Shown here: positions 18,843-58,901 of the stretch, piece after piece
Position numbering within the stretch: the stretch's first letter is position 1
Layout of the letters: the number at the start of each line of letters is the position of its first letter
Assembly (NCBI GenBank): GCA_902782225.1
Contig: CACZMF010000002.1
Location: forward strand, 153,549-217,548
Reading direction: 5' to 3'
Length of the DNA stretch: 64,000 nt
From: an uncultured Bacteroidia bacterium
GTDB taxonomy: Bacteria > Bacteroidota > Bacteroidia > Bacteroidales > UBA932
Notes under the pieces: model-generated
Seen by the model: the letters and a program-made list of their open reading frames with translations, nothing else
Databases searched by the model: none
What the model was told of the DNA's origin: nothing
Position numbers and translations under genes: made by a program

Positions 18843-20572
18843 TGACAACAGAGCAATTCATAGCCGCGAAGGCCGTTGAGGCGGTCAAGGCGCTCTACGG
18901 CGCCGATGTCCCCGCCGATCTGATGCAGGTCCAGGTGACCCGCAAGGATTTCGAAGGCGACTACACCCTGGTGGTGTTCCCGCTCCTCCGCACTTCCCGC
19001 CAGGCTCCGGCCGCGACCGCCCAGGCGATAGGGGAGTGGATGACGGCTTCCTGCCCCGAAATCAGCGGCTTCAATGCCGTGCAGGGCTTCCTCAACCTCA
19101 GCCTGAGCAATGTCTGGTGGCGCGAGGCGCTTGAAGAGGTCATCTCCGACCCTTCTTTCGGCACCCTCCCGTCCACGGGCAGGCGCGTGATGGTGGAATT
19201 CTCTTCCCCCAACACCAACAAGCCCCTCCACCTCGGCCACATCCGCAACAACCTCCTCGGCTCCAGCGTGTCCGACCTTCTCAAGGCCGCCGGCGACCAG
19301 GTCATCAAGGCCACCCTGGTCAACGACCGCGGCGTCCACATCTGCAAGTCGATGTATGCCTGGGAGAAACTCTTCGACGGAGCCACCCCTGAAAGCACCG
19401 GCATCAAGGGCGACCACCTCGTCGGCGACTGCTATGTGGCTTATGCCAAATATGAAAAGGAGCACCCGGAGGCCATAGAAGACGTCCACAGGATGCTCGT
19501 CAAGTGGGAGGAAGGCGACCCTCAGGTGCGCGCCCTCTGGGAGAAGATGAACGGCTGGGTGTTCGACGGCTTCGAGCAGACCTACAAGGCACTCGGCATC
19601 AGTTTCGACCGCACCTACTATGAGCACGACACCTACCTCCTGGGCAAGGAACTTGTGCAGAAAGGCCTGGATATGGGCGTGTTCGTCAAGGATCCCGACG
19701 GCTCCGTGTGGTGCGACCTGACCGCCGACGGCCTTGACCGCAAGCTCCTGCTCCGTTCGGACGGCACTTCCGTGTATATGACCCAGGACCTCGGCACCGC
19801 CGAGCGCCGCTTCGCCGAGTATGACCTGGATTCCCACGTCTATGTGGTCGGCGACGAGCAGAACTACCACTTCCAGGTGCTCAAGCTCGTGCTGAAGAAA
19901 CTCGGTTACGCCTGGTCCGACCAGATTTTCCACCTCAGCTACGGCATGGTGGAACTGCCCGAAGGCAAGATGAAGAGCCGCGAAGGCACCGTCGTGGACG
20001 CCGACGACCTCATCGAGAAGATGTACCAGGAGGCGAAGGCCACCAGCGAGGAGTCCGGCAAGCTGGACGGGATAGCAGAAGAAGAGAAGGAACGCCTCTT
20101 CCGCATGATAGGGCTCGGCGCTCTCAAGTACTTCATACTCAAGGTGGATCCCAAGAAGAAGATGCTCTTCAATCCCAAGGAGTCCATCGACTTCAACGGC
20201 AACACCGGCCCCTTCATCCAGTACACCCACGCCCGTATCTGCAGCATACTCCGCAAGGCGGAGGAGGCCGGCGTCAAAGCCGCCCTTTCTGCTGATGCAG
20301 TGCTCAGCCCCAAGGAGATACGCCTCGTCAAGCTGCTTGCCACATATCCCCAGAAGGTGGCCGAAGCCGCTGCCGCCTACTCCCCGGCCCTCATCGCCAA
20401 TTTCGCCTACGACCTGGCGAAGGAGTTCAACCAGTACTACCACGAAACTCCCGTGCTCAAGGAGCCCGATCCCGTGCTGCTTTCGATGCGCCTCGCCCTC
20501 ATCGGCACCCTCGCATCCACGCTGCGCAAGGCAATGGGCATCCTCGGCATAGAACTTCCTGAAAGGATGTGA
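18842..20572 (+). CDS. argS: arginyl-tRNA synthetase
   Basis: A 576-residue class I aminoacyl-tRNA synthetase that charges tRNA-Arg. The HIGH-type signature is HLGH in SSPNTNKPLHLGHIRNN (about residue 130), and the KMSKS equivalent is MKSREGTVVDADDL (about residue 378). The N-terminal Arg-tRNA recognition domain and the C-terminal anticodon-binding DALR domain (FIQYTHARICSILRKAEEAG and following helices) are complete. Length is close to the usual 560-600. The start overlaps the sigma factor stop by one base; ygiQ begins inside its stop codon. Confidence 0.96.
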   Translation: MTTEQFIAAKAVEAVKALYGADVPADLMQVQVTRKDFEGDYTLVVFPLLRTSRQAPAATAQAIGEWMTASCPEISGFNAVQGFLNLSLSNVWWREALEEVISDPSFGTLPSTGRRVMVEFSSPNTNKPLHLGHIRNNLLGSSVSDLLKAAGDQVIKATLVNDRGVHICKSMYAWEKLFDGATPESTGIKGDHLVGDCYVAYAKYEKEHPEAIEDVHRMLVKWEEGDPQVRALWEKMNGWVFDGFEQTYKALGISFDRTYYEHDTYLLGKELVQKGLDMGVFVKDPDGSVWCDLTADGLDRKLLLRSDGTSVYMTQDLGTAERRFAEYDLDSHVYVVGDEQNYHFQVLKLVLKKLGYAWSDQIFHLSYGMVELPEGKMKSREGTVVDADDLIEKMYQEAKATSEESGKLDGIAEEEKERLFRMIGLGALKYFILKVDPKKKMLFNPKESIDFNGNTGPFIQYTHARICSILRKAEEAGVKAALSADAVLSPKEIRLVKLLATYPQKVAEAAAAYSPALIANFAYDLAKEFNQYYHETPVLKEPDPVLLSMRLALIGTLASTLRKAMGILGIELPERM

Positions 20573-22425
20573 TTCCGGCGCAGGACTATATGTTCCCGAC
20601 TTCCATAAAGGAGGTCCAGGCACTCGGATGGGACTACATCGACGTCATCTTCTTCACGGGAGACGCCTTTGTGGACCATCCGAGTTTCGGTACCGCCTGC
20701 ATTTCCCGCTGGCTGCAGAAGGCCGGCTACAGGGTGGCGGTGGTGCCGCAGCCCAACTGGCGCGACGACCTGCGGGATTTCCGCAAGCTCGGCGCCCCGC
20801 GCCTCTATTTTGCAGTCAACGCCGGTGCGATGGATTCGATGGTGAACCACTACACCGCAGCGAAGCGCCTCCGCCACGACGACGCCTACACCCCTGAAGG
20901 CCGTGCAGGGCAGCGTCCCGACAGGGCAGTGACCGTCTATACCCGCATCCTCAAGCAGCTCTGGCCCGACGTGCCCGTGGTCATAGGCGGCGTCGAAGCC
21001 TCCCTGCGCCGCCTCACGCACTACGACTACTGGGACGACCGCCTCATGCCCTCCATTCTCGTGGACAGCGGCGCCGACTGGCTCTGCTACGGCATGGGCG
21101 AAAAACCCATGCTCGCCCTCACCCGCGCCATCGAAAAGGGCTGGTCCCTCCGCCAGATCCAGCAATTACCCCAGATAGCATTCTACCGTACCGGCAGCAA
21201 GGCTGGCGGAGCGGAGACTGGCAGTGGTTCCCGAAACTGTGGCCGCCCATGGCCACATGAATGGGAGGGGCCCGCTGCGAAGCAGTGGGAGGGACGGAGC
21301 GAAGCGGAGGTTTCGGGAACTGCTGGCAGCGCAGCGGAGCCGTTTATACTTCATTCCTACGAAGAGTGCTGCCGTAGCAAGCAGGCATTTGCGGAGAACT
21401 TCCACCATATCGAGATCTACGCCAATATGCTGCACCCCCCGGTGCTCATAGAGCCCGTGGGCCAGGGCTACGTGCAGGTCAACCCCACCTGCGACCCCTC
21501 CACGACTGCGGAAATGGACTCCTACTGGGACCTCCCTTTCACCAAACTCCCGCATCCCCGCTACAAAGGCAAACGCATCCCCGCGTACGATATGATCAAA
21601 GACAGCATCATCACCCACCGGGGCTGCTTCGGCGGCTGCAACTTCTGCACAATCGCCGCCCACCAGGGCAAATTCATCCAGAGCCGCAGCGAGGAAAGCA
21701 TACTGAAAGAAGTACGGAAACTGGCCGCGATGCCCGAGTTCCACGGCAACATTTCCGACGTCGGAGCCCCCACGGCCAATATGTACGGAATGACCGGCCA
21801 GGACCCCGGCCGCTGCGAAAAGTGCCGCCGCAAATCCTGCCTCTACCCGGCTCCCTGCGTGAATCTGGACCGTTCCCACGAAAGGTTGCTGCGGCTCTAT
21901 GAGCGCATCGACGCAGTCAAGGGCGTGCGCCATTCCTACATAGGCAGCGGCATACGCTACGATCTCTTCCTCGATGAAAAGGGCTTCGTGGACAAGACCT
22001 CTTGTCCGTATCTGGAGACCGTGATGCTCAGGCACACATCCGGCCGTATGAAAGTGGCCCCGGAGCACACTTCCGACAAGGTGCTGGGCTATATGGCCAA
22101 GCCGTCGTTCCGCCTTTTCGAGCGCCTGCGCAAGGAATTCGACGGCATTAACCGCAGGCACGGGACCCACGTGGAGCTGGTGCCGTATTTCATTTCGTCG
22201 CACCCGGGCTGCACCCTGCGGGATATGCAGGAACTGGCCCACCACCCCGCCCTGAAGGGCATCTGGATGGACCAGGTGCAGGATTTTATGCCCACACCGA
22301 TGACCACCAGTTCAGTGATGTTCTACAGCGGGATCGATCCCCGCACGATGAAGCCGGTGTTCGTGGAACGCGATCCCGAGCGCAAACGCCAGCAGAAGTC
22401 CCAGTTCTTCAGGAAGAAGTCCTAG
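20569..22425 (+). CDS. ygiQ: YgiQ-family radical SAM protein carrying an in-frame palindromic insert
   Basis: A 618-residue UPF0313 radical SAM enzyme. The N-terminal part matches the family (VIFFTGDAFVDHPSFGTACI), and the 4Fe-4S cluster motif CFGGCNFC is near residue 350 in THRGCFGGCNFCTIAAHQG. The substrate is unknown in the family. Residues about 206-262, between the N-terminal domain and the radical SAM core, are a low-complexity insert not expected in YgiQ; bases 21227-21320 within it are the palindromic element described separately. The GTG at 20569 overlaps the argS stop; the ATG at 20590 is an alternative. The reading frame stays open through the element. Confidence 0.9.
   Translation: MIPAQDYMFPTSIKEVQALGWDYIDVIFFTGDAFVDHPSFGTACISRWLQKAGYRVAVVPQPNWRDDLRDFRKLGAPRLYFAVNAGAMDSMVNHYTAAKRLRHDDAYTPEGRAGQRPDRAVTVYTRILKQLWPDVPVVIGGVEASLRRLTHYDYWDDRLMPSILVDSGADWLCYGMGEKPMLALTRAIEKGWSLRQIQQLPQIAFYRTGSKAGGAETGSGSRNCGRPWPHEWEGPAAKQWEGRSEAEVSGTAGSAAEPFILHSYEECCRSKQAFAENFHHIEIYANMLHPPVLIEPVGQGYVQVNPTCDPSTTAEMDSYWDLPFTKLPHPRYKGKRIPAYDMIKDSIITHRGCFGGCNFCTIAAHQGKFIQSRSEESILKEVRKLAAMPEFHGNISDVGAPTANMYGMTGQDPGRCEKCRRKSCLYPAPCVNLDRSHERLLRLYERIDAVKGVRHSYIGSGIRYDLFLDEKGFVDKTSCPYLETVMLRHTSGRMKVAPEHTSDKVLGYMAKPSFRLFERLRKEFDGINRRHGTHVELVPYFISSHPGCTLRDMQELAHHPALKGIWMDQVQDFMPTPMTTSSVMFYSGIDPRTMKPVFVERDPERKRQQKSQFFRKKS
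21227..21320 (+). repeat. palindromic structured element, copy 1 (inside ygiQ)
   Basis: An 11-bp perfect inverted repeat, GTTCCCGAAAC (21227-21237) and GTTTCGGGAAC (21310-21320), extended outward by imperfect pairing, encloses a 72-base core. The core has a perfect 7-bp hairpin TGTGGCC-GCCCAT-GGCCACA, then AATGGGAGGG, then a hairpin with loop GAA (CCCGCTGC-GAA-GCAGTGGG), then GAGGGA and a GCGAAGC mini-hairpin. The same core occurs in uvrD at 58601-58670. Here it is translated in frame as about residues 220-251 of YgiQ. Confidence 0.8.
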
Positions 22426-56403: not shown

Positions 56404-56474
56404 TTTTATATCGATATAATAATTTGCAAAAAGCGTTGCGAAGATACCACTTTTTTTTGTATTTTCGCGTCATT

Positions 56475-58901
56475 ATGGAGAACAATGTGCGTGTAATTTT
56501 GGACGGACTGAACGAGGAGCAGGAGAAGGCGGTCCGGTGTGTAGATGGTCCTGTGTTGATAGTGGCGGGTGCCGGTTCGGGCAAAACCCGCGTTCTGACA
56601 AGCCGAGTTGCTTATTTGCTTGCCCTCGGGGCGGATCCTTCGCGTATCCTTGCCCTGACCTTCACAAAGAAGGCGGCGGGGGAGATGAAGGAAAGGATAG
56701 CCCGTATGGTCGGAAACTGGAAGGCGCGCCGCGTCGTGATGGGCACCTTCCACTCCATTTTCGTGCGCTTCCTGCGGGAGTATGCCGGCAGTCTAGGCTA
56801 TCCCGAAAGTTTCACCATATACGACCAGAGCGACTCCACGGCTGCCGTAAAGACCGTGATTAAGGAGCTCGGGCTCGACGATTCGGTCTACAAGCCCAGG
56901 GATGTGCTGTCCCGGATTTCCAACGCCAAGAACTATCTCGTGACTCCAAGGGCCTACCGCGAAGACCGCAACACCCAGATTGCGGACGCGCACGCCAAAA
57001 AGCCGCGTATCGCAGACATATACGACCTCTACCAGGCCCGCCTCAAGCAGTCGGGAGTGATGGATTTCGACGACATACTCGTCAATATGAACATCCTCCT
57101 GCGCGACAATCAGGAGGCCCTGGATGCCATAGCTGCCCGCTTCACCCACATAATGGTGGACGAGTACCAGGACACCAACTACGCCCAGTACCTGATCATC
57201 CGCAAGCTGGCCGCAAAGCACCACAACATCTGCGTGGTGGGCGACGATTCCCAGTCCATCTACGCCTTCCGCGGCGCCCAGATACAGAACATCCTGAATT
57301 TCAAGCAGGACTACAAGGACTGCAAGGTGTTTCGCCTGGAGCGCAACTACCGCAGCACCAGCACCATAGTGGATGCCGCCAACTCCCTGATTGAGCACAA
57401 CACCGGCCGCATCCCCAAGCACTGCTATGCCGACGGTCCCGAAGGCGAGAAGATCCACGTCCTGAAGACCTGGTCCGAGCAGGACGAAGCGGTCGACATA
57501 GTGTCTGCCATCCAGGACCGTGTCCGGAAGGACGGCGCCCAGTACCAGGACTTTGCCATACTCTACCGCACCAACGCCCAGTCGCGCCCGCTCGAAGAGC
57601 AGCTGCGCCGGCGCAACATCCCATACATCGTGTATTCCGGCCATTCTTTCTTCGACCGCGCCGAGGTCAAGGACCTGATGGCCTATTTCAAGCTGGTGGT
57701 GAACCCTATGGACGACGAGTCGTTCAAGAGGGTGGTAAACACCCCGGCCCGAGGCATAGGCGACACCAGCATCCGGGCCCTCGAAGAGGCGGCGCGCTCG
57801 GGGCAGACCTCCCTTTTCAGGGCGGCCTTCTCCGACGGCCTCGAAGCCTTCGGCCTCCGCAATGCCGGAATCCAGAAGATTCGCTCCTTCTGCCTGATGA
57901 TAGATCTTCTCAACCAGAAGTTCAGGCAGACCGACGCCTTTGAGCTGGCCACGGAGATTGCCGACAAAAGCGGCATCCTGGCGTTCTACAAGGCAGACAT
58001 GTCCATCGAAGGGCAGTCCCGGCTCGCCAATGTGGAGGAGCTTGTGAACTCCGTTGCATCGTTCGTCGAGGAGCGGGAGGAAGAGGCCGAGGGTGCGGAG
58101 GCCACCTTCACGCTGGATGATTATCTTGAGAACGTGTCGCTGCTGAGCAGCGTGGATATGGAGGATGACGAAGACACCAACAACAAGGTGGCGCTTATGA
58201 CAGTCCACTCGGCCAAGGGTCTGGAGTTCCCATATGTGTTCGTGGCGGGAATGGAGGACAATCTGTTCCCGAGCCAGAATATGTTGCTGTCCCTGAAGGA
58301 TATAGAGGAGGAGCGGCGGCTCTTCTACGTGGCCGTGACACGCGCCGGGAAAGTGGTGACCCTGTCTTTTGCCGGCACCCGCATGCGCAACGGCCGCCAC
58401 GAGTCCAACGCGCCGTCGCGCTTCCTCAAGGAGATAGATCCCAAGTATCTCGACCGGCCCCTGGATTCCGATGATTTCTCTTCCGAGGGCAATGCTACGG
58501 GGTGGTCAGGTTTTGGCAGCCCGAGGGGTGGTATTAACCGGACTGGCGGCTTTGGCGTATTTGGCAGCGGCAGCCGGGACAGGGGTGTCTCTCCGACGGG
58601 CGTGGCCGCCCGTGGCCTCGTGAACGGGAGGGGCCCAGCTTCGCTGGGAGGGATGAGCGCGAAGCGCGAACCCGTTCGGAGAGACACCCCTGTCTCGGCT
58701 GCAGCCCCCGTGGATCCTAATTTCATCCCGCTGCCGATGACGGAATTCAAGCCCGGAATGCGCATAGAACACAACCGCTTCGGCTTTGGAGAGATTCTGG
58801 AAATCACCGGCAAGGTCCCCGAACTCAAGGCCCGGGTGCGCTTCGACACCCTCGGAGAGAAGCTGCTGCTTCTCAAATACGCCAAGATGCGCCGCGGGTG
58901 A
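56475..58901 (+). CDS. UvrD/PcrA-type DNA helicase carrying an in-frame palindromic insert
   Basis: An 808-residue SF1A helicase. Walker A is VAGAGSGKTRVL (about residue 32), motif II is MVDEYQDTNYAQY, motif III VVGDDSQSIYAFRGA, motif IV RLERNYRST, motif V LMTVHSAKGLEF, motif VI LFYVAVTRAGK. It unwinds DNA in repair and replication. The C-terminus has the PcrA-type Tudor-like domain (FKPGMRIEHNRFGFGEI). Residues about 699-743, in the linker before it, come from the palindromic element at 58571-58701; the neighbouring linker is Gly-rich. The ATG at 56475 is preferred. A TATTTTCG sequence at 56459-56466 may be its -7 box. Confidence 0.93.
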   Translation: MENNVRVILDGLNEEQEKAVRCVDGPVLIVAGAGSGKTRVLTSRVAYLLALGADPSRILALTFTKKAAGEMKERIARMVGNWKARRVVMGTFHSIFVRFLREYAGSLGYPESFTIYDQSDSTAAVKTVIKELGLDDSVYKPRDVLSRISNAKNYLVTPRAYREDRNTQIADAHAKKPRIADIYDLYQARLKQSGVMDFDDILVNMNILLRDNQEALDAIAARFTHIMVDEYQDTNYAQYLIIRKLAAKHHNICVVGDDSQSIYAFRGAQIQNILNFKQDYKDCKVFRLERNYRSTSTIVDAANSLIEHNTGRIPKHCYADGPEGEKIHVLKTWSEQDEAVDIVSAIQDRVRKDGAQYQDFAILYRTNAQSRPLEEQLRRRNIPYIVYSGHSFFDRAEVKDLMAYFKLVVNPMDDESFKRVVNTPARGIGDTSIRALEEAARSGQTSLFRAAFSDGLEAFGLRNAGIQKIRSFCLMIDLLNQKFRQTDAFELATEIADKSGILAFYKADMSIEGQSRLANVEELVNSVASFVEEREEEAEGAEATFTLDDYLENVSLLSSVDMEDDEDTNNKVALMTVHSAKGLEFPYVFVAGMEDNLFPSQNMLLSLKDIEEERRLFYVAVTRAGKVVTLSFAGTRMRNGRHESNAPSRFLKEIDPKYLDRPLDSDDFSSEGNATGWSGFGSPRGGINRTGGFGVFGSGSRDRGVSPTGVAARGLVNGRGPASLGGMSAKREPVRRDTPVSAAAPVDPNFIPLPMTEFKPGMRIEHNRFGFGEILEITGKVPELKARVRFDTLGEKLLLLKYAKMRRG
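58571..58701 (+). repeat. palindromic structured element, copy 2 (inside uvrD)
   Basis: A long inverted repeat, 58571-58600 and 58671-58701 (30 and 31 bases, one mismatch and one extra base), encloses a 70-base core. The core reads GTGGCCGCCC-G-TGGCC, then TGAACGGGAGGGG, a CCCAGC-TTC-GCTGGG hairpin, GGGAGGGA, and a GCGC-GAA-GCGC hairpin. The same order of blocks occurs in ygiQ at 21238-21309. The flanking repeats are unrelated to those of copy 1. Here it is translated in frame in the UvrD linker. Confidence 0.82.

Follow-up and report, generated by a model that had tools for sequence, protein, structure and literature searches.

How a structured palindromic element comes to lie in frame inside two unrelated genes is the question raised by this locus, a window of 64,000 nt (the whole stretch of DNA analysed) from an uncultured Bacteroidia bacterium. 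Rickettsia has long been known to carry in-frame palindromic elements, to our knowledge without a settled mechanism. We find two copies in the window, at ~21218–21329 in ygiQ and ~58571–58701 in uvrD, and both host frames read through them (Table 1; the names ygiQ and uvrD/pcrA are from NCBIfam). The initial annotation had located both cores, had noted that the two genes read the core in different frames, each of which stays open through the insert, and had placed the insertions in a loop or linker of each protein; all of this holds, the loops or linkers being variable and the sites a YgiQ loop and the C-terminal linker of uvrD. Exact GTGGCCGCCCNTGGCC matches the window only at the two cores, and exact GGGAGGGGCCC only in the two copies. 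With up to three mismatches GTGGCCGCCCNTGGCC matches 7 times, as compared to 4.6 expected, so that the motif on its own is weak evidence and it is the full arrangement that matters. The + strand of copies 1 and 2 folds better than shuffles (RNA z −4.1 and −8.4; DNA z −3.6 and −8.3), and so does the − strand (RNA z −2.5 and −9.0; DNA z −2.1 and −7.8), as expected of a palindrome. An Rfam scan around copy 1 gave three chance-level matches, the best at E 0.17, all far below gathering scores.

Table 1. The two element copies and their host genes, in window coordinates
Feature	Position	Strand	Basis or remark
Copy 1 core	21239-21310	+	inside ygiQ
Copy 1, outer stem 5' arm (copy-specific)	21218..21237	+	pairs with 21310-21329 in predicted fold
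Copy 1, pseudoknot S1 (21239-21244/21251-21256; L1 = 21245)	21239..21256	+	covariation, 85 distinct rows
Copy 1, S2 5' strand CCCAT	21246-21250	+	covariation, 85 distinct rows
Copy 1, S2 3' strand ATGGG	21261..21265	+	paired in 99.5% of cells; change on both sides at two pairs
Copy 1, AGGGG strand and hairpin P3, C(GAA)G loop	21266..21289	+	predicted fold, loop statistics
Copy 1, AGGGA strand and hairpin P4, GAA loop	21290..21309	+	by eye; weak in predicted folds
Copy 1, outer stem 3' arm	21310..21329	+	predicted fold
ygiQ (radical SAM protein), in-frame insert	20569..22425	+	TIGR03904, E 1.4e-223
Copy 2 core	58602-58670	+	inside uvrD
Copy 2, outer stem 5' arm	58571..58600	+	predicted fold
Copy 2, pseudoknot: S1 58602-58607/58614-58619; S2 CCCGT 58609-58613 with ACGGG 58624-58628	58602..58628	+	family covariation; the nested fold, which cannot draw pseudoknots, pairs 58602-58628 otherwise
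Copy 2, AGGGG, P3 (CCCAGC/GCTGGG), AGGGA, P4 (GCGC-GAA-GCGC)	58629..58670	+	predicted fold
Copy 2, outer stem 3' arm	58671..58701	+	predicted fold
uvrD/pcrA-like helicase, in-frame insert in C-terminal linker	56424..58901	+	TIGR01073, E 2e-217, below model cut-off

The two copies belong to a large family. The search of the genome and its relatives proposed in the initial annotation yields 15 clear copies in the source genome (picked by eye among 20 listed matches). A broader model at E 1e-4 gives 16 matches there, the sixteenth weak (E 3.2e-5), and 503 in 39 genomes of the genus, of which 34 are positive, with 0 to 49 matches per genome; for three genus genomes even the top match is weak (E 1.5e-6 to 6.2e-6). 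Among 393 genomes sampled across the order, 6 match, three belonging to other families, and our first model had zero matches in 24 genomes from 24 other families. A public pattern scan returned at least 119 stretches; among those listed, 112 are in Bacteroidales, Bacteroidia or Bacteroidaceae records, many come from ruminant guts, and one clear copy lies in a record that bears the name Candidatus Cryptobacteroides. The element-bearing genus of gut bacteria is probably Cryptobacteroides. Copy 1 has no match in plasmid and phage collections, and two viral_contigs matches were judged by eye to be chance. The copy-set counts given below leave out elements too near a locus end and ten loci judged chance or partial (L111, L115, L118, L134, L147, L173, L213, L223, L229, and L230), which are still included in the arm-energy set of 158 parsed hits. 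Several copies in G064, a genome of another family (L354, L359, L363, L366, and L369), have in common a 3' flank ending in a terminator-like hairpin, and so seem to be part of a larger multi-copy unit.

The core of each copy, ~70 nt long, consists of an H-type pseudoknot followed by two variable hairpins and is enclosed by an outer stem. The loop CCCRT of GTGGCC-GCCCRT-GGCC is able to pair with the AYGGG that follows (S2), and 194 of 198 copies allow a CCC to be placed in the first loop such that its next two bases oppose a downstream RRGGG; given a choice of CCC, the parse took the best-pairing one and thus leans towards S2. We measured covariation on copies with the most frequent spacing (164 copies, giving 85 distinct rows; the L153 row is apparently misparsed). 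Of the 425 S2 cells, 99.5% are paired, and the two variable pairs show 50 and 40 double changes in 85 rows with zero one-sided changes, the pair types being U-A 35, G-C 32, A-U 17, and C-G 1 for one, and U-A 43, C-G 40, and other 2 for the second. None of 500 shuffles attains the S2 covariation score of 0.455, and sliding yields no more than 0.246; taken by itself, S2 falls within the shuffles on two of five measures (double-change pairs 364/500, further pair types 500/500), because three S2 pairs never vary. The two copies in the window themselves differ in a compensatory way, with CCCAT/ATGGG in copy 1 versus CCCGT/ACGGG in copy 2. The nucleotide before CCC also covaries with the middle of the TRA linker (G/G 109, A/A 56, and A/T 15 of 194). 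The pseudoknot is followed by AGGGG, hairpin P3, AGGGR, and hairpin P4; both hairpins are variable, and P4 is absent from some copies. The core is an H-type pseudoknot with strong compensatory change.

This fold, with its different reading frames, agrees with the earlier view that nucleic acid rather than peptide is conserved, and shows compensatory changes, a test for which had been proposed for the hairpins. We find neither the same insert everywhere with conserved amino acids nor a mere two copies lacking covariation. The structure first described needs partial revision: its hairpins are kept, but its core is a pseudoknot, and its stem is longer than claimed and mostly locus-specific. Four copies in the source genome (L071, L072, L073, and L075) have a common derived core and arms that by eye are alike only beside it. 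L372 and L118 combine a normal 3' half with an unrelated 5' half and may be partial or chimeric, L118 perhaps a partial copy.

The outer stem, roughly 22–30 bp, usually differs in sequence between copies. Its end lies 22–30 nt from the core in 120 of 191 copies, and the median length with arms, whose ends are approximate, is 129 bp for non-coding and 133 bp for coding copies. For 161 of 198 copies the stem aligns with a higher score than any of 1000 swapped-arm controls, though stems were located by local alignment on DNA identity, which favours paired stretches; the median duplex energy of true arms is −62 kcal/mol, as compared to −31 kcal/mol for swapped arms (158 parsed hits). The arms are unrelated between most copies, and a few groups have arms in common. 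When 14 arm sequences were searched in their own genome, 27 of 32 matches were their own loci and the remaining five were weak (E 0.01 to 6.5), and an 18-nt piece of the copy 1 5' arm likewise matches that genome only at its own locus; no donor for the arms was found there. In FolC and RfbB the outermost stem pairs resemble a short host palindrome, two cases that we offer as a lead only. Most of the arm in both is not recognisable as host sequence, a point against the fold-back reading given below.

Among 200 copies, 68 lie within long frames that stay open across the element (22 sense, 31 antisense, and 15 ambiguous). Some of these long frames are possibly spurious, as that of L075 seems to be, given the stops in its L113 homologue. 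Copies outside long frames are stop-free in 292 of 780 combinations of frame and orientation, from which, with the length condition, ~0.125 of random insertions would be tolerated. In the source genome the host genes include ygiQ, uvrD, folC, rfbB, and mazG (sense), tsaB (antisense), and a pectate-lyase-like gene with an antisense, tandem copy; genes without an NCBIfam or Pfam-type assignment were named by eye. Empty sites, which the initial annotation had hoped to find among homologues, exist: the YgiQ homologues in L120 and L127 have a short loop and no insert, and a more distant uvrD homologue (L296) has none, while L214 carries a copy in the same uvrD linker. Insert-free homologues were also seen for FolC, RfbB, RsmE, EamA, TsaB, penicillin-binding-like, ComEA-like, and two RNA-methyltransferase-like genes. 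The same loops have been hit in several species, in both directions. FolC and RfbB show no plain target-site duplication, their homologues being too diverged to be sure. Other short in-frame repeats occupy the same or similar loops (CHFERSREIS in the FolC of G006, L084; RHCEESEGRRGNLSE in the RfbB of G021, L322; and STGAERSGEI in a DnaX-like linker, L288), so that several types of element seem to be tolerated at such sites. Reading frames also hold tandem duplications of the element or of half of it (L069 and L193). The 130 non-coding copies comprise 21 +E+, 27 −E−, 20 convergent, 6 divergent, 7 with one neighbour missing, and 49 overlapping a called frame; as they face both ways, we rejected a general 3' UTR or terminator role.

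The fold could be selected as RNA or as DNA, and the stems and loops bear on which. Stem mismatches on the + strand are G.T 133 versus A.C 49, and G.A 148 versus T.C 23. For the stems that score above every control the ratios are 102:34 and 114:19. The bias is kept in copies antisense inside genes (31:14 and 40:4), so selection there is unlikely to act on the host mRNA. Loops of the GNA and GNNA types are especially stable in DNA. Among distinct P3 loops, GNA accounts for 32 of 59 triloops and GNNA for 23 of 26 tetraloops, of which 7 are of the RNA type GNRA; there is no UUCG. For P4, counted over all copies, GNA makes up 70 of 91 triloops and GNNA just 4 of 16 tetraloops. The P3 loops and the mismatch asymmetry favour a + strand that acts as folded single-stranded DNA rather than as host mRNA, and together they suggest that DNA folds could be distinguished from RNA folds by sequence alone. 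Element orientation shows no link to replication direction as read from GC skew (47 of 102 positive).

A structured RNA, either mobilised via RNA in SINE-like fashion by reverse transcriptase or functional in each host transcript, would account for the H-type pseudoknot, which is typical of RNA, for stems in which G.U is commoner than A.C, and for a + strand RNA fold that beats shuffles; the pseudoknots and the G.U tolerance are points against a DNA reading, as are the P4 tetraloops. We nonetheless regard an RNA as distinctly unlikely. Within genes, antisense copies are no rarer than sense copies, and they too show the mismatch bias; the P3 loops are of DNA type, S2 is free of wobble pairs, and copy 1 has no Rfam match. 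G.T makes up 2.3% of aligned stem columns, as compared to 6% G.U in tRNA stem pairs from the same loci, a weak comparison in that the tRNA caller brackets allowed pairs only and our stems were found by DNA identity. The in-frame habit described in the initial annotation thus survives in modified form: copies do lie in genes, but in both orientations, and a single-stranded DNA fold is favoured over a needed mRNA structure.

Pairs of copies at one site show how the stem changes, in several cases on both sides at once. Pairs changed on both sides and still paired number 7 of 32 in L112/L163 (3 unpaired), 7 of 31 in L041/L204 (4 unpaired), 0 of 31 in L198/L227 (2 unpaired), 13 of 39 in L201/L254 (10 unpaired), and 15 of 28 in L255/L287 (0 unpaired), where the inner arms are maybe not homologous. 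A merely mobile element would not need its fold kept in this way, a point against the mobile-element reading favoured below. At the RsmE site, L113 and L273 have like arms and cores in opposite directions, an apparent core inversion; the arms are 77% identical in either direction of comparison, and inversion and re-insertion are not fully separable because an inverted repeat looks alike both ways. The stem of L287 is 49–54 nt, and ~38 nt of its outer 3' arm (on the coding strand) is an inverted copy of conserved host coding sequence on the 5' side. This one clear case is direct evidence of fold-back copying at a single site, from which the model below generalises. Arms common to copies at different places (a group in G027; L362, L365, and L368 in G162) support movement of whole elements.

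On balance we lean towards a non-autonomous mobile foldback DNA element that is recognised by shape and whose stem would be both created and maintained in paired form at the locus through fold-back copying. The mobile form would most likely be the folded + strand as single-stranded DNA, with the pseudoknotted core recognised by a protein through its shape and the closing stem largely free in sequence. Fold-back template switching at the core would generally make the stems and keep them paired, and could also flip the core; a trans-acting hairpin-binding enzyme would move the element, and copies inside genes would persist if they keep the frame, contain no stop, and fall in a loop that tolerates them. 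More tentatively, and possible rather than probable in our estimation, the pseudoknotted single-stranded DNA element may be little more than the core, and fold-back copying where it lands would turn host sequence into its terminal inverted repeats, hence the unique stem of each copy and the flippable core. It is unusual that a fold should persist while the sequence of its stem can vary freely. Since the family offers hundreds of copies, homologues with empty sites, pairs of copies at one site, and a core that folds, one can test how the element moves, why its stem need only be paired, and how proteins tolerate the insert.

We found no description of this element in the open-licence literature, and the text available to us of PMC3733652, PMC6006769, PMC10969869, PMC2800124, and PMC2727003 describes no such core. 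The element resembles Rickettsia palindromic elements in habit, not anatomy. Those are palindromic, about 150 bp, and inserted in frame in unrelated genes (PMC10969869, PMC3733652, as far as the available text goes), and in-frame insertion is common to both (here the 68 of 200 copies in long frames). As described, they differ in stem, core, and host: our stems are mostly unrelated between copies, the core is a conserved pseudoknot, and the host is of the Bacteroidales. Of the parallel drawn in the initial annotation the in-frame habit therefore stands and family membership does not, as no stem sequence is common across our family and no family-wide consensus including the stem, such as that of the Rickettsia elements, is seen. 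The element would work like integron attC sites, which the accessible text of PMC2727003 presents as recognised in the form of folded single-stranded DNA with little sequence conservation. Its sequence signatures agree with such a strand-specific fold with a free stem; it differs from attC in that its conserved part is the centre. Mitochondrial double-hairpin or repetitive hairpin-forming elements are apparently mobile, occur in genes and spacers, and are left in transcripts (PMC2800124, available portion); their setting is an organelle, and that portion mentions no pseudoknot.

What moves the element is a separate matter, for which we considered two transposase families. REP/RAYT systems, of the HUH Y1 type, pair multi-copy hairpin DNA with enzymes that act on single strands, and some REPs lie in genes, even at about the same site in two relatives (PMC3733652, in the part available); genes of the Bacteroidetes subclass 2.6 are flanked by atypical structures with copies elsewhere (PMC6006769, likewise in part). 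A REP-type tyrosine transposase family with a weak match to NF047646 and PF01797 is present in several copies per genome in much of the genus; this divergent family (L373-L412, L309-L319) is ~290–340 aa, with up to 7 matches per genus genome. A first comparison of transposase and element numbers by Pfam model suggested no link, and a more sensitive alignment gave a correlation within the genus (Spearman 0.60, P 0.002, 24 genomes; 0.56 with four outside genomes added), split transposase matches being counted separately. At E 1e-5 an element is present at seven of 51 transposase loci, as compared to 1.87 expected (P 0.003).

We nevertheless rate as rather unlikely a conventional REP/RAYT system in which the element is the REP of this genus's transposases. 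The other 44 loci have no element at that threshold (one has a weak match at 0.005), and no 10-mer is common to at least 6 of 49 transposase flanks, the control windows for this count being from loci chosen because they hold elements. G010 has the gene but no element, and G009 has five of each; elements occur without a match to the candidate transposase family in G013, G030, and G031 and, outside the genus, in G162, G064, G214, and G244. In size and foot the element is unlike REPs, which are 20–40 bp and in many cases have a GTAG end: it is ~130 bp and has no constant foot and no regular transposase neighbour. A constant GT[AG]G foot is absent, as the first S1 bases vary and belong to the helix. 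For the shape-recognised foldback element that we prefer, a REP-type HUH tyrosine transposase might be the mover, as a candidate only.

Derivation as a MITE from an IS1182-family element appears highly improbable. An element lies directly 3' of an IS1182 transposase gene in L047, and L043 resembles a deletion derivative with arms and 3' flank in common with L047; the association is found in that one group of loci only, the arms of most other copies are unrelated, and a conserved terminal repeat across copies, as the terminal inverted repeats of MITEs would be, is largely seen to be absent. More likely, IS1182 carries a copy of the element. The loci concerned are L047:1381-3068, L043, L268, and L269, with the IS1182-family element that has a copy after its transposase gene and its apparent deletion derivative, and contigs of G021 end at such IS1182-associated copies.
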